DNA of 64,000 nucleotides, taken from NCBI GenBank assembly GCA_022571845.1, contig JACZXB010000003.1:124001-188000 (forward strand), read 5' to 3'. Of the stretch, positions 2,648-58,258 are shown piece after piece (position 1 is the first letter of the stretch; every line of letters begins with the position of its first letter). Both the position numbers and the translations under genes were made by a program. The notes beneath the pieces were generated by a model, which had not been told where the DNA came from, did no database searches, and worked only from the letters and a program-made list of their open reading frames with translations. The stretch comes from Candidatus Zixiibacteriota bacterium (GTDB lineage Bacteria; Zixibacteria; MSB-5A5; GN15; FEB-12).

Positions 2648-3031
2648 TTAATCAGGACGAATACAGCAGCCTTCGTGGTCCAATACCGCGCTTTCATTAG
2701 GAGTGGTTCCCTTCAATCGATTTATGTAGAAATCCAAGTCCTTCTTGACCACTTCAGCGCAATATGGGCAACGACAAAAGTCTAATTCCTGCCCTTCAAT
2801 TTCAATTGTTACGGCTTGGTCAGGCGGCTTTTCGGCCAGGCAACTGGGACACACGATTAAATCGCGGCTTTCCGCCAAGTATTTCTCAGGATCAGTGACG
2901 AATAAATCAACGCATCCCTTGCAACAAAAAAAGTATTCTTCATCGTTGTGATGGTATACTGAGGCCTGCGCTTTGCTGATTCCCAGCCTGACAAGGGAGC
3001 AACCACAGGTGGAACAAATAGGCGTTTTCAT
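2648..3031 (-). CDS. YHS/TRASH-like cysteine-rich metal-binding protein
   Basis: This 127-residue protein is packed with paired cysteines: 'CSTCGC' near the N-terminus, 'YFFCCKGCVDLFVTDPEKYL' (a YHS/TRASH-like metal-binding pattern) at about 33-53, 'CPSC' near 62, 'CRCPYC' near 87 and a C-terminal 'GCC'. Such domains bind soft metals and are common in heavy-metal operons. It lies 35 bases downstream of the selenocysteine-type glutaredoxin on the same strand and divergent from the merR-like operon, so it probably acts as a cytoplasmic metal-binding or delivery protein. No signal peptide is seen. Its exact role, whether chaperone or sensor, is inference. Confidence 0.7.
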   Translation of the reverse strand: MKTPICSTCGCSLVRLGISKAQASVYHHNDEEYFFCCKGCVDLFVTDPEKYLAESRDLIVCPSCLAEKPPDQAVTIEIEGQELDFCRCPYCAEVVKKDLDFYINRLKGTTPNESAVLDHEGCCIRPD

Positions 3032-3066: not shown

Positions 3067-3300
3067 TTATAGTCCGAGTGCTTTCATCAGCTCTGCTTCG
3101 TTAAAGCCTACAATAGCGGCCCCATCAATAACAGTAACCGGCGTGGTCATATACCCCAGTTGCTTTAATTCTTCGAGAGCTGACTCGTCCTCGGCGACGT
3201 TGCGCTCTGTGTAGGAGATGTTCTTGTGTGAAAGAAACTCTTTCGTCCTGTCGCAAAACATTCAGCCCGGCTGGGAATATACTATTACTTTTCGATTCAT
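3067..3300 (-). CDS. Glutaredoxin-like protein with probable selenocysteine (UGA) at codon 13
   Basis: From the ATG at 3300 the frame reads M-N-R-K-V-I-V-Y-S-Q-P-G, then UGA (3264-3262), then M-F-C-D-R-T-K and a normal glutaredoxin/NrdH-like remainder, including 'TTPVTVIDG' (cis-Pro loop) and 'VGFNEAELMKALGL', 77 residues plus TAA. The UGA falls exactly at the first cysteine of the family's CxxC motif, giving U-M-F-C. A strong GGAGGT ribosome site (3314-3309) sits 8 bases before the upstream ATG, whereas the internal ATG after the UGA would remove strand beta-1 and half the active site. A SECIS-like hairpin follows. Glutaredoxins with a UxxC motif are known bacterial selenoproteins. The alternative is a nonsense mutation, but its position makes that unlikely. 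Confidence 0.8.
3230..3244 (-). promoter_or_regulatory. Candidate bacterial SECIS hairpin
   Basis: On the minus strand, GAAAG-AGUUU-CUUUC forms a perfect 5-bp stem with a 5-nt loop. The loop starts 22 nt after the UGA and has G at its second position. This fits the published general bacterial SECIS pattern: a short apical loop with a G in the first two positions, about 16-37 nt from the UGA. The stem is short, so folding software should judge it. Confidence 0.5.
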
Positions 3301-3508
3301 AGTCCTGTACCTCCGTGTACGTTTGATTGCCAGTTTGTCACAATATAGACCAAAATTATTCCCGTGTCTATCAGAAGATCCAATGTTATAGAGGCTTGAT
3401 AGATTCAAGCTTCACACCGGTTGCCTCATCAATTGCCGGCTTATAACAGCAAGAGAATCGATAGTTAGCTAAATTTTTCAATTTTTTTGTTTTTTTGAGA
3501 AAACTGGA

Positions 3509-3530
3509 ACCCTGTACTATAGTACAGGGT
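3509..3530 (+). promoter_or_regulatory. MerR-family operator, perfect 22-bp palindrome
   Basis: The half-site ACCCTGTACTA is followed immediately by its exact reverse complement. This matches the dyads that MerR-family activators bind between -35 and -10 elements separated by about 19 bp; candidate elements are around 3504-3509 and 3529-3534. It lies just upstream of the merR-like gene, implying autoregulation of the 3545-6011 operon and possibly of the divergent selenoglutaredoxin gene. Confidence 0.8.
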
Positions 3531-3544
3531 GTTACGGGTAATGA

Positions 3545-3988
3545 ATGGAGAACAAAACGATGAAAACTAATGACTTAAATTCTGGTGACCTTGCTCGAGC
3601 TGTTGGAGTCAATAAAGAGACCCTGCGATTCTATGAACGAAAGGGACTCCTGAGGAAGCCAGAAAGGACAGAGGCTGGTTATCGGCTTTTCGATTCTACC
3701 GATGTCGAGCGGTTAACCTTTATTAAGAATGCCAAGAGTCTCGGATTCAGTTTGGGGGAAATCAAGGAACTTCTGGCGATTGCTGACGGCAACATCACGT
3801 GTCGTGATGAGGTCAAGAGCATAGCTAAGAGCAAACTCAATTTCATCGACTCTCAAATCGAGAGCCTGAATAATTGGAAAAGAACATTATCAAAATTGCT
3901 GTGTGATTGCGAAAAGACAGACAGTGATGATCTGTGCCCAATCATTCAAGATTTATCGAAAGGAAAAAACAATGACTGCAAGAAGTGA
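3545..3988 (+). CDS. merR: MerR-family metal-responsive regulator
   Basis: This 147-residue protein has an N-terminal MerR winged-helix (residues 13-80: 'DLARAVGVNKETLRFYERKGLL'), then a dimerisation helix and a metal-binding C-terminus. Cysteines at 86, 122 and 131 have nearly the spacing of the Hg(II)-binding cysteines 82, 117 and 126 of Tn501 MerR; an extra cysteine is at 120. This supports mercury, or a related soft metal, as inducer. The gene sits directly after a perfect MerR-type operator and is first in a co-directional operon, with the MerT-like start overlapping its end by 17 bases. An internal Met at codon 6 is an alternative start. Confidence 0.8.
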   Translation: MENKTMKTNDLNSGDLARAVGVNKETLRFYERKGLLRKPERTEAGYRLFDSTDVERLTFIKNAKSLGFSLGEIKELLAIADGNITCRDEVKSIAKSKLNFIDSQIESLNNWKRTLSKLLCDCEKTDSDDLCPIIQDLSKGKNNDCKK

Positions 3989-4406
3989 AGCTATGAAAGC
4001 TACAGTCCCAAACCAGGAAGTGCGTGGCGTGAAAGAAAAGGTGATCAGTTTTCTGGCGCTTTTTACTTCCACCGGCACCTTACTCTGCTGTGCCTTGCCG
4101 GCCTCACTGGCTGCCATCGCCGGCGGATCAGCCGTGGTTGGTTTGATGTCAACTTTTCCGTGGCTGGCCCCGTTATCTCAACATAAGGGCTGGATTTTTC
4201 TGGTGGCGGGTGTCATGATAGGGTTTAATGCTCTGCTCTCTTTCCGTCCGAAGGGAGCCGTAGCTTGTGCCATAACCGGCGGTAAGGGATGTGAAGTTGC
4301 CGGGAGATTCTCCAGAATAATGCTCTGGATCTCAATTGTAGTTTACTCTGTAGGTGTCTTCATGTCATATGCCATTGTACCAATTTTGCGGTTGCTGGAG
4401 GGTTAA
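3972..4406 (+). CDS. merT: MerT-like mercuric ion membrane transporter
   Basis: From the ATG at 3972 (AAGGA site upstream) the product is 144 residues with hydrophobic segments at about 24-50, 55-75, 78-95 and 115-138. The first segment carries the vicinal pair Cys39-Cys40 in 'TGTLLCCALPAS', characteristic of the MerT/MerC/MerF importers that receive Hg(II) in the inner membrane. A second cysteine pair flanks the 'CAITGGKGCEVAG' loop. Overlap with the merR-like gene and a barrel gene starting two bases after its stop indicate one operon. No MerA mercuric reductase accompanies it here, which is unusual for a resistance operon. Confidence 0.7.
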   Translation: MTARSEAMKATVPNQEVRGVKEKVISFLALFTSTGTLLCCALPASLAAIAGGSAVVGLMSTFPWLAPLSQHKGWIFLVAGVMIGFNALLSFRPKGAVACAITGGKGCEVAGRFSRIMLWISIVVYSVGVFMSYAIVPILRLLEG

Positions 4407-4408
4407 TT

Positions 4409-5389
4409 ATGAAACATTGTTTAGTCCATATTTTGCCAAAAGGTGAAAAAATAAAAAACGTACTGAGAAAAGAGTCCGGCTACTTTATGATTAACTGGCG
4501 CAATTTGTTTAAAGTAGTGTTATCCTGTGCAATTCTGCTTCCACTCACTGACGCTCTTGCACAGGGTCCGCCGATTAACACAGATACGCCTATTATGCTT
4601 GGAGTGTCGGGAGGGGGGATTCGAAGCTTCGGTAAGATTACCCGCAAAGCTACCCTATTGCGCGATGGTAAAGAAATAGCCGACACCTTAGATAGGAGTG
4701 TTACTTCATGGGTTACGCCGGTGGCGATACCGTACAATTTGTACTCCGACAAATTGCAAATAGGTTTGATTTTCCCTTATGTGAATATTAACCTCGATAA
4801 AACGACAGGCGATGTCTCCAGCTCCGGCATTGGAGACATAAAACTGTCCGCGAAATATTTGGTCTACCAATTCGACCGGAAGAACAAGACTATCCGAGTA
4901 GCCTGGAAGGCGGGAGTAAAACTTCCAACAGGTGACGAGGATACTCAGCCAGCGCTGGGCACGGGATCGACGGACTATTTCTTTTCAACCGTTGCTGGTT
5001 GGCTTGAAAAGCGTGTTGGAGTGTTTATTGAGGGCATATACAATGTTAATACATCCAGGGACTCTCTGGATTTTGGCAACAGCTTTTCCTACAATCTTGC
5101 GCTGGGTTATCGTTTGCTACCCGCGGTTTATGAAACGTATCCTTCGCCCCAGATTAACGGATATCTGGAGCTTAATGGAACTACCGTCGCTAAGAGGGAA
5201 GTAAACGGCGCCAAGGTTGACAATTCGGGAGGAACGATACTCTTTTTATCTCCAGGGCTCCAATACATTGGAGGTCGAGGCTGGCTGGTGGAAACGTCAT
5301 TTCAATACCCCATTATTACCGAGCCCAACGGTACCCAGTTAGCTACCGATTGGACGCTCTCATTTGGAACCAGGATATTGGTGTTTTAG
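4409..5389 (+). CDS. Outer-membrane beta-barrel protein of the metal cassette
   Basis: This product of up to 326 residues contains a signal-like stretch 'FKVVLSCAILLPLTDALAQG', then alternating beta strands ending in an aromatic-rich C-terminus ('LSFGTRILVF'), typical of an outer-membrane barrel. The ATG at 4409 has a GGAGGG site 5 bases upstream but gives a long basic lead before the signal; the ATG at 4487 gives a canonical signal peptide. The barrel shares a late 'LSPG' strand and overall plan with the protein at 12070-12942, which is also paired with an HMA protein. This suggests an outer-membrane metal conduit. The substrate is inferred from the neighbours only. Confidence 0.65.
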   Translation: MKHCLVHILPKGEKIKNVLRKESGYFMINWRNLFKVVLSCAILLPLTDALAQGPPINTDTPIMLGVSGGGIRSFGKITRKATLLRDGKEIADTLDRSVTSWVTPVAIPYNLYSDKLQIGLIFPYVNINLDKTTGDVSSSGIGDIKLSAKYLVYQFDRKNKTIRVAWKAGVKLPTGDEDTQPALGTGSTDYFFSTVAGWLEKRVGVFIEGIYNVNTSRDSLDFGNSFSYNLALGYRLLPAVYETYPSPQINGYLELNGTTVAKREVNGAKVDNSGGTILFLSPGLQYIGGRGWLVETSFQYPIITEPNGTQLATDWTLSFGTRILVF

Positions 5390-5486
5390 AATCGAAGGAG
5401 TTTTCTGAAAGCGATATCAAATACTTAAGAAAAAATAACTGAGAATGAGAGATCAAACTAACATTAGTAGAAAGGACAATCAAATT

Positions 5487-6011
5487 ATGAAGAAGTTAAT
5501 AGCACTAACGGTATCCATGCTGATTCTCGGCATGGGGATTTCACCGGCGGTCAATGCGCAGGTGGAGGAGGTCGGCATTAGGGTTGACGGGCTCTCTTGC
5601 CCGTTCTGTGCCTACGGTCTTGAGAAAAAACTCAAAAAGATCGACGGCGTTAACGATGTGATAATCAACATTGATAAAGGTGTTGCGACGCTAAAAGGGA
5701 AGAAAGGTGGGTCTATCGTTGTTGAGGGATTGAAGGACGCAGTTGCCGATGCAGGCTTTACACCCAGGCAAATCACTGCGATCGTAGTGGGAGCGGTCGA
5801 AGAGCATGGCGATTTTGTAGTTCTAAAGAATATTGGCTCAGACTTCATGTTCATTCTGAAGGAGAACGAACAACTCCTGGAACTACGTTCAAAGTTGCAG
5901 GACACTGAGAAGCAGGTCCGAGTCGAGGGTGTTCTGACCTATGTTGCCCCCGAAGGTCATGACAATCATCCCTATACTTTGACCATTGAGCGGTTTGAGG
6001 TCATTTCGTGA
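5487..6011 (+). CDS. merP: MerP-like periplasmic HMA-domain protein
   Basis: Starting at the ATG at 5487 (AAAGGA upstream) the product has 174 residues: a signal peptide (1-24, 'PAVNAQ'), an HMA domain with 'GLSCPFCAYGLEKKL' (Cys38, Cys41) to about residue 95, and a C-terminal beta-rich region (about 95-174) not found in classical 90-residue MerP. It probably scavenges a soft metal ion in the periplasm and hands it to the MerT-like protein. An in-frame ATG at 5445 lacks a ribosome site. It is the last gene of the cassette. Confidence 0.75.
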   Translation: MKKLIALTVSMLILGMGISPAVNAQVEEVGIRVDGLSCPFCAYGLEKKLKKIDGVNDVIINIDKGVATLKGKKGGSIVVEGLKDAVADAGFTPRQITAIVVGAVEEHGDFVVLKNIGSDFMFILKENEQLLELRSKLQDTEKQVRVEGVLTYVAPEGHDNHPYTLTIERFEVIS

Positions 6012-56836: not shown

Positions 56837-58228
56837 ATGGCTAATTCAAAAGAGTTTGACGGCATAGTAATTGGTTCAGGCCAGTCCGGCGGACCATTAT
56901 CCGGGGCATTCTCACGGGCTGGCTGGAAAATGGCTCTGATAGAAAAAGCTGAAATCGGCGGCACTTGTGTTAATTCTGGCTGTACACCTACCAAAACAAT
57001 GATCGCCAGTGCCAGAGTAGCCTATGTTGTCAGCCGTGCCAGAGAATATGGTGTTAATACTGCCGCTGTTTCAATAAGCATGAACAAAGTCAGAGAGCGA
57101 AAACGAAATATAGTAAATATGTTTCGTTCCGGCGGCGAACGGGGAATTGCCAACGCCAAGGTCGAACTTTTTCGCGGAAAAGCTTCGTTTGTCGACTCCA
57201 AAACGCTTGAAATCGAACTTAACGACGGCAGCAAGCAAACTCTGACGGCTAAAAAGATTTTTATTAATGCCGGCACCAGAAATTTTAGACCGAACATAGA
57301 AGGACTCGACCAAGTAAAATATCTTGATTCGACTTCTATAATGGAGCTGAACAAAGTTCCTAAGCATCTGATTGTTGTCGGCGGTGGTTACATTGGTCTG
57401 GAATTTGGACAAATGTTTCGGAGGTTCGGCAGCCAGGTAACTATACTTCACCAGGGCGCTCAGCTTTTGGATCGGGAGGACAGCGATATTGCCACAGAAG
57501 TTGCCAAAATACTAGAGGGCGAAGGCATAAATATTTTGCTTAACTTAGCAGTCAAAAAAGTATCAAAACCAACTAAAGATAAAATCAAAGTAGAAGCAAA
57601 AATTGACGGCAAATCCAGAAGATTTACAGGCAGCCACCTGCTGATTGCAACGGGCCGCGTTCCTGAATCCGATGAACTAAATCTAAAAGCAGCGGGTATT
57701 AAAACCAACCCGCGAGGATTCATAAAAGTAAACTCAAAACTTGAGACAACTGCCAGGAATGTTTATGCTATTGGCGACGTCAAAGGCGGCCCGGCTTTTA
57801 CTCATATTTCGTATGATGATTTTAGAATTCTGCGCACCAATCTATTAAACAACGGTTCGGCAAATACCAAGGGCCGCTTGGTGCCATATACGGTGTTTAT
57901 TGATCCGCAGTTAGGCCGGGTTGGCATTTCAGAAAAAGAAGCAAAAAATAAAGGGTTGAATTATAGAGTCGGTAAACTTCCGATGAGCCATGTTGCCCGC
58001 GCTCTGGAGATGGACGAAACCCGTGGGTTCATGAAAGTTATTGTCGATGCCAAAACAGAACAGATACTCGGCTGTGCTGTACTTGGAGTCGAGGGCGGTG
58101 AAGTAATGTCTGTCATGCAGATGGCCATGCTGGGCAAAATCAAATACTCAAAAATACGCGACGGCATTTTTGCTCACCCGCTATTGTCTGAATCATTAAA
58201 CAATCTGTTCATGGCGATGGACCGCTGA
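56837..58228 (+). CDS. Class I pyridine-nucleotide-disulfide oxidoreductase (FAD)
   Basis: This 463-residue flavoprotein has an FAD site 'GIVIGSGQSGGPLSGAFSRAG', redox disulfide 'GGTCVNSGCTPTKT', NAD site 'VVGGGYIGLEFGQMFRRFG', 'VYAIGDVKGGPAFTH' and a C-terminal dimer interface with catalytic 'FAHPLLSESLNN'. It resembles the mercuric-reductase branch, yet lacks the C-terminal CysCys pair and the N-terminal HMA domain, so it is not MerA. It lies 27 bases after kbl and may be a dihydrolipoamide dehydrogenase-like or unknown-substrate reductase of this operon. Confidence 0.88.
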   Translation: MANSKEFDGIVIGSGQSGGPLSGAFSRAGWKMALIEKAEIGGTCVNSGCTPTKTMIASARVAYVVSRAREYGVNTAAVSISMNKVRERKRNIVNMFRSGGERGIANAKVELFRGKASFVDSKTLEIELNDGSKQTLTAKKIFINAGTRNFRPNIEGLDQVKYLDSTSIMELNKVPKHLIVVGGGYIGLEFGQMFRRFGSQVTILHQGAQLLDREDSDIATEVAKILEGEGINILLNLAVKKVSKPTKDKIKVEAKIDGKSRRFTGSHLLIATGRVPESDELNLKAAGIKTNPRGFIKVNSKLETTARNVYAIGDVKGGPAFTHISYDDFRILRTNLLNNGSANTKGRLVPYTVFIDPQLGRVGISEKEAKNKGLNYRVGKLPMSHVARALEMDETRGFMKVIVDAKTEQILGCAVLGVEGGEVMSVMQMAMLGKIKYSKIRDGIFAHPLLSESLNNLFMAMDR

Positions 58229-58258
58229 ATAAAGGAATATATTCAGGAACTATCTGAT

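Follow-up and report, generated by a model that had tools for sequence, protein, structure and literature searches.

This locus raises the question of whether an in-frame UGA near the start of a small glutaredoxin gene is a stop codon or a site of selenocysteine (Sec) insertion, and what role such a protein would have beside metal-handling genes. The gene, here called grxU, lies in a 64,000-nt stretch (the window) of a Candidatus Zixiibacteriota genome of 2.75 Mb that is 98.8% complete. An earlier note, made from the sequence of the window alone, had proposed a Sec glutaredoxin within a mercury-type cassette.

The grxU reading frame and its UGA codon

The grxU gene and its signals are the following.

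3067–3300, minus strand: grxU, predicted Sec glutaredoxin of 77 aa with a UxxC active site (sequence, Pfam, predicted fold)
3262–3264, minus strand: putative Sec codon UGA, residue 13 of grxU (TGA at the aligned site in every close homologue and in several distant ones)
3230–3244, minus strand: SECIS-type upper hairpin GAAAGA-GUU-UCUUUC, apical loop 23 nt past the UGA (fold and comparison)
3309–3314, minus strand: Shine-Dalgarno sequence GGAGGT, 8 bases 5′ of the ATG at 3300 (sequence)
3342–3370, minus strand: promoter-like TAGACA-17-TATATT upstream of grxU (consensus match only)

Read on the minus strand from 3300 to 3067, the gene is MNRKVIVYSQPG-UGA-MFCDRTKEFLSHKNISYTERNVAEDESALEELKQLGYMTTPVTVIDGAAIVGFNEAELMKALGL-TAA, that is, 77 aa and the TAA stop. 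The protein begins MNRKVIVYSQPG-U-MFC..., with the in-frame UGA standing where the CxxC motif has its first Cys. The earlier note's claims that the UGA exactly replaces the first Cys and that GGAGGT precedes the upstream ATG are borne out: the TGA at 3264–3262 aligns with Cys in distant homologues, and GGAGGT is located at 3314–3309, with GGAGGA as its counterpart in one relative (L019). Under the standard code, only the 64-aa remainder (3261–3067) is listed at this locus, as the note had predicted, and standard gene calling drops the catalytic end of the protein.

The sequence on either side of the UGA is indeed that of a good glutaredoxin. With Cys read at the UGA, grxU matches the Pfam Glutaredoxin family with an E-value of 4.3e-17 (62.5 bits; gathering cut-off 22.9), and its AlphaFold model, built with 17 aligned relatives, has a pLDDT of 93 and the strand and helix order of a glutaredoxin. 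The closest solved structure is cGrx1 (PDB 7c10; also 7c12 and 7c13), with a TM-score of 0.93 and 40% identity, and a sequence search gives the same top match. We take cGrx1, from Clostridium oremlandii, to be natively a Sec protein that was crystallised with Cys. The second Cys (C16) and Pro54 are invariant in the grxU alignment. The best NCBIfam matches are of the YruB and NrdH types, both below their curated cut-offs (GlrX_YruB, TIGR02196, 71 bits against 88.55; NrdH, TIGR02194, 65.3 against 85.75); the Uxx-star family (NF041212) scores 54.9 bits against 66.

The UGA occurs at the identical alignment site in 14 homologues from independent assemblies inside and outside the phylum. Within the phylum these are G001 (86% identity), G044 (81%), G068 (64%), G128 (47%), and G100, G102, G103, G110 and G067 (33–37%). 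Five outside relatives, drawn from a second genome collection, come from Frackibacter, Chloroflexia, Thermomicrobiales, Burkholderiales and a MAG labelled Bordetella parapertussis; apart from the first four genomes named, identities inside and outside the phylum range from 33 to 43%. Glutaredoxins of the phylum that are more distant carry TGC or TGT at the site. The alternation of Cys and Sec at position 13 that the earlier note looked for is therefore seen between the close set (UGA) and distant homologues (Cys), and in the close relatives the UGA gene is intact and under purifying selection rather than decayed. Downstream of the UGA, dN/dS is 0.08–0.13 among the three closest genes; upstream it is 0.18–0.24 in two computable comparisons, over 12 codons, a number too small for a firm value. 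A homologue search for grxU in two same-genus genomes gave no match. Plasmid relatives are limited to annotated glutaredoxin or NrdH genes, all below 60% identity, and so give no evidence for a plasmid origin.

The source genome encodes the machinery for Sec insertion. A tRNA-Sec with anticodon TCA (UCA) scores 71 bits, selB (331 bits) and selA (409 bits) are adjacent on contig C1, and selD (389 bits) lies on C2 with its own UGA within CAGUASK, the known Sec position of SelD. The SelB domain profile PF09106 had no match; full-length selB is clear nonetheless. All four of selA, selB, selC and selD are thus found, and the refutation that the earlier note had offered, absence of selB/selC, fails. 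Global reassignment of UGA was considered and rejected because ordinary genes of the window, neighbours of grxU, terminate normally in TGA (2494, 3988 and 6011).

These observations bear on the simplest alternative, in which the UGA is a true stop in a pseudogene or a sequencing error and the product is at most the 64-aa remainder begun at the ATG just after it. Detection of the remainder alone by a standard caller fits this reading. Yet the same UGA recurs in 14 homologues from independent assemblies, which argues strongly against a stop, and the gene is under purifying selection. The remainder would lack the first strand and the nucleophile, and the ATG following the UGA in the window copy is absent from most homologues, so a short product from there is not a conserved alternative. 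We consider a true stop very improbable. Sec insertion into a UxxC glutaredoxin is strongly supported by comparison, and grxU is almost certainly a functional selenoprotein gene.

The hairpin downstream of the UGA

Published rules for bacterial SECIS elements describe a loop of 3–9 nt, a stem of 4–16 bp, a G in the first two loop positions and a spacing of 16–37 nt (PMC13188914). The grxU hairpin, with 6 bp, a spacing of 23 nt and a GUU loop that has G first, conforms to all four. Its energy is −7.1 kcal/mol (54 nt) against a published guide of −7.5, which most homologues pass; the window copy is the weakest of the close set, with one outer pair lost (C-A). Folded alone, a 66-nt stretch of the window does no better than shuffles, so a comparative test was needed.

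An initial free scan for SECIS elements was too permissive, in that Sec genes and shuffled sequences were not separated in every gene. A fixed-position test, chosen after the common hairpin had been seen, finds 6–8 contiguous pairs in 14 of 14 Sec genes (grxU included), with the loop 22–23 nt after the UGA. Against synonymous shuffles that keep the protein sequence, this pairing gives p values of 0.0007–0.025 per gene, which are non-independent and somewhat favourable because the homologues are related and the place was fixed post hoc. Cys homologues have 2–3 pairs at the same place (p 0.33–1), and the hairpin is absent from them. Four of the pair positions vary on both sides as paired changes. 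The two Chloroflexota-type genes spell the AKEFLSR that they share with other members in different synonymous codons (GCU-AAG...CUU-AGC vs GCG-AAA...CUU-UCG) and still pair over 7 bp. The hairpin is not a chance structure, since the UGA site is shared by 14 homologues and the hairpin is found in 14 of 14 sequences. The earlier note's proposal of a bacterial SECIS at 3244–3230 thus holds for the rules and for conservation; the window copy is weak in energy and in the 66-nt fold taken alone.

Two of the phylum's genomes, G103 and G102, carry a second glutaredoxin (L035 and L036) alongside the Sec form in one cassette, with Cys-x-x-Ser and a partial hairpin at the same place; it is perhaps a former Sec gene.

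Metal genes beside grxU and its relatives

Around grxU, the window contains the following features.

2648–3031, minus strand: Cys-rich YHS-domain protein, putatively metal-binding, 35 bp downstream of grxU (domain match; same order in G001)
3509–3530, no strand: perfect 22-bp dyad ACCCTGTACTATAGTACAGGGT, candidate MerR-type operator before merR (similar sequence before merR in G044, L020)
3560–3988, plus strand: MerR-family regulator (TIGR02051, 130.6 bits, cut-off 150.85)
3972–4406, plus strand: MerT-like membrane protein carrying two pairs of Cys, a CC within the first membrane segment and a C...C beyond it (weak NF033556 match)
4409–5389, plus strand: outer-membrane-type protein, PF13557 (Phenol_MetA_deg), no UGA; distant homologue of the UxxU barrel-type proteins described below
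5445–6011, plus strand: HMA-domain (MerP/CopZ-like) protein (domain match)

Together, grxU and the Cys-rich YHS gene form a small unit placed head-to-head with the run of MerR, MerT-like, outer-membrane and HMA genes; grxU diverges from this run and is not within it. No MerR-type dyad was found directly upstream of grxU. The cassette of the earlier note is upheld as a metal cassette, with MerR, MerT-like, HMA and YHS proteins adjacent. Its specificity for mercury is unproven, because the regulator scores best as the MerR subtype yet below equivalog level, no reductase reaches the MerA cut-off (best genome match 357 bits against 454.45), and several relatives sit in copper-type cassettes. The window MerT-like protein matches the MerT profile weakly; its orthologue adjoins grxU in G044, and a clear PF02411 MerT adjoins grxU in G068.

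Two other loci of the window deserve mention. A second UGA selenoprotein, suggested by a MerA-like match at 56858–58231, was considered and rejected; its TGA is the normal stop of a MerA/lipoamide-dehydrogenase-like flavoprotein (56837–58228) below the MerA cut-off, and the match ran past this ordinary stop into a downstream alcohol-dehydrogenase-like gene. Beside the cassette, 584–2494 encodes a protein that joins TPR repeats to an HD_5 (HD-GYP-type) domain, possibly a cyclic-di-GMP phosphodiesterase.

Eight of the ten Zixibacterial grxU copies adjoin MerR/MerT-type or CsoR/CopA-type genes, as a raw count; the exceptions are G128, with no metal genes around grxU, and G001, where the grxU–YHS pair recurs and the YHS gene is the sole metal-type neighbour. 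The order grxU-merR-merT is kept in G044. In G068, grxU lies in a co-directional run of genes for a CcdA-like protein, MerR, a thioredoxin-like protein, an outer-membrane-type protein, grxU itself, CsoR and MerTP. The copies in G100, G102, G103, G110 and G067 occur with CsoR and/or SHOCT genes plus a YHS-HMA protein or a P-type ATPase, neighbours identified by family matches at some of these loci and read from sequence at the rest. The metal link of grxU is real and broader than mercury, with several relatives in copper-type (CsoR/CopA) cassettes. Outside the phylum, the Frackibacter homologue precedes an NrdJ-like gene, as read from sequence, and a Burkholderiales MAG (L042) has a Sec glutaredoxin immediately 5′ of what read as selA and selB genes. 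These outside copies adjoin NrdJ-like or sel genes rather than metal genes, and the family of enzymes is thus not specific to metals.

In G068, the neighbour of grxU that encodes an outer-membrane-type protein contains two UGAs (UGLU) immediately behind the signal peptide. Homologues in nine further genomes have UALU at the same place, so that the UGA pair is conserved in ten genomes. The loci are:

G000:C7:68150–69046 (L066, L093; the copy of the source genome); L048:6303–7271; L064, L065, L067–L070, L072 and L073: putative UxxU outer-membrane-type proteins

In all ten UxxU genes, a hairpin with a GGUC loop lies 17 nt after the second UGA. Individually these hairpins give p values of 0.06–0.19 in a free scan, so the argument rests on their fixed position and the conserved UGA pair. 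In six of the ten genomes the gene belongs to mer-type (MerR/MerT/MerC) cassettes: that of G068 described above, and those in which it follows MerR, MerTP-like and thioredoxin-like genes (G000, G002 and G003) or MerR and MerC-type genes (G004 and G086); no metal genes were seen near it in the remaining four. Of these neighbourhoods, those of G000 and G004 were examined by family matches. Neither NCBIfam nor Pfam gives a match to the G068 protein, and the family is absent from the 119-family list of PMC13188914 and the other family lists searched. We regard the UxxU protein as a candidate new double selenoprotein, and as a stronger novelty than grxU. A more distant homologue (L087, G038:C15:270222–271130) has a single UGA (VKUASPNLPVGR), which suggests that the UxxU motif varies.

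Known relatives and proposed role

Sec glutaredoxins with UxxC are a listed, experimentally verified selenoprotein family (PMC13188914 Table 1; PMC1794560), with members (PF00462) in, for example, Geobacter, Alkaliphilus and Moorella (PMC1794560; PMC13188914). Since this family is already known, grxU is an added member. Like the known proteins, it has the glutaredoxin fold, the N-terminal Sec of UxxC and a SECIS just after the UGA; it differs in its occurrence in Zixibacteria beside metal genes and in being ∼40% identical to the nearest solved member. That member, cGrx1, has the active-site spacer PH where grxU has MF, and it is described as acting with MsrA rather than with metal proteins. 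UXX-star proteins (NF041212, NF041211 and NF041114) are small, Sec-containing and glutaredoxin-like, and metal-ligand roles have been proposed for them (PMC13188914); grxU falls below all three cut-offs and retains the second Cys. The mercury-linked selenoproteins (PF02411 MerT; NF045683 MerT/CopZ; NF041115 UxxU metal-binding) likewise join selenium to mercury-type transport genes, but in the window it is the glutaredoxin that would carry Sec, and the MerT-like and HMA proteins have Cys. No description of the recurrent metal-cassette setting of Sec glutaredoxins was found in the open-licence literature searched.

In the reading that comparison strongly supports, the hairpin at 3244–3230 directs SelB and tRNA-Sec(UCA) to insert Sec at the UGA at 3264–3262, and the product is a glutaredoxin of 77 aa whose active site is Sec13-x-x-Cys16. 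Its selenolate may attack disulfides, or thiols blocked by soft metals, on Cys-rich proteins of the cassette; a Sec-Cys bridge would form and be re-reduced by the thiol system of the cell, and metal capture and export would thereby keep working under metal or oxidative stress. That the grxU selenoprotein is part of a metal-handling unit is probable. To the redox role within the metal cassette we assign a probability of roughly one half.

A less likely reading is that grxU encodes a general Sec redoxin of the NrdH/YruB type, serving ribonucleotide reductase, peroxiredoxin or MsrA, and lies near metal genes by accident. The top NCBIfam types and the NrdJ-like neighbour in Frackibacter are consistent with it, as is the Clostridium oremlandii selenoprotein glutaredoxin that serves MsrA (PMC4479559 and its reference 14). 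Accident fits poorly with Zixibacterial copies that adjoin metal genes of two different kinds in eight of ten cases, and with the place of grxU inside a metal gene run in G068. It is more doubtful still that the main work of the Sec-x-x-Cys pair is that of a ligand or chaperone for soft metals, passing Hg(II) or Cu(I) to partners of the MerT or CopA type. Selenols have a very high affinity for Hg(II) in general chemistry, the neighbours are metal genes, and the UxxU outer-membrane-type protein in sister cassettes suggests that selenium ligands are favoured there; the complete glutaredoxin fold, with its invariant C16 and Pro54, points instead to redox catalysis. Alongside the redox role, direct metal binding by the UxxC pair is possible but secondary.

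With grxU, a well-supported selenoprotein is added to a phylum that a single paper of the literature searched names together with selenoproteins, and selenocysteine is connected with metal cassettes in a way open to experiment. More tentatively, Zixibacteria may possess a selenium-based defence against soft metals, in which the UxxC glutaredoxin and, in sister cassettes, the outer-membrane protein with its new N-terminal UxxU motif would use selenocysteine to capture Hg(II) or Cu(I), strip it or pass it on. If the UxxU protein is what it appears to be, two Sec residues at the N terminus of a mature surface protein would set selenium right where incoming metals pass.
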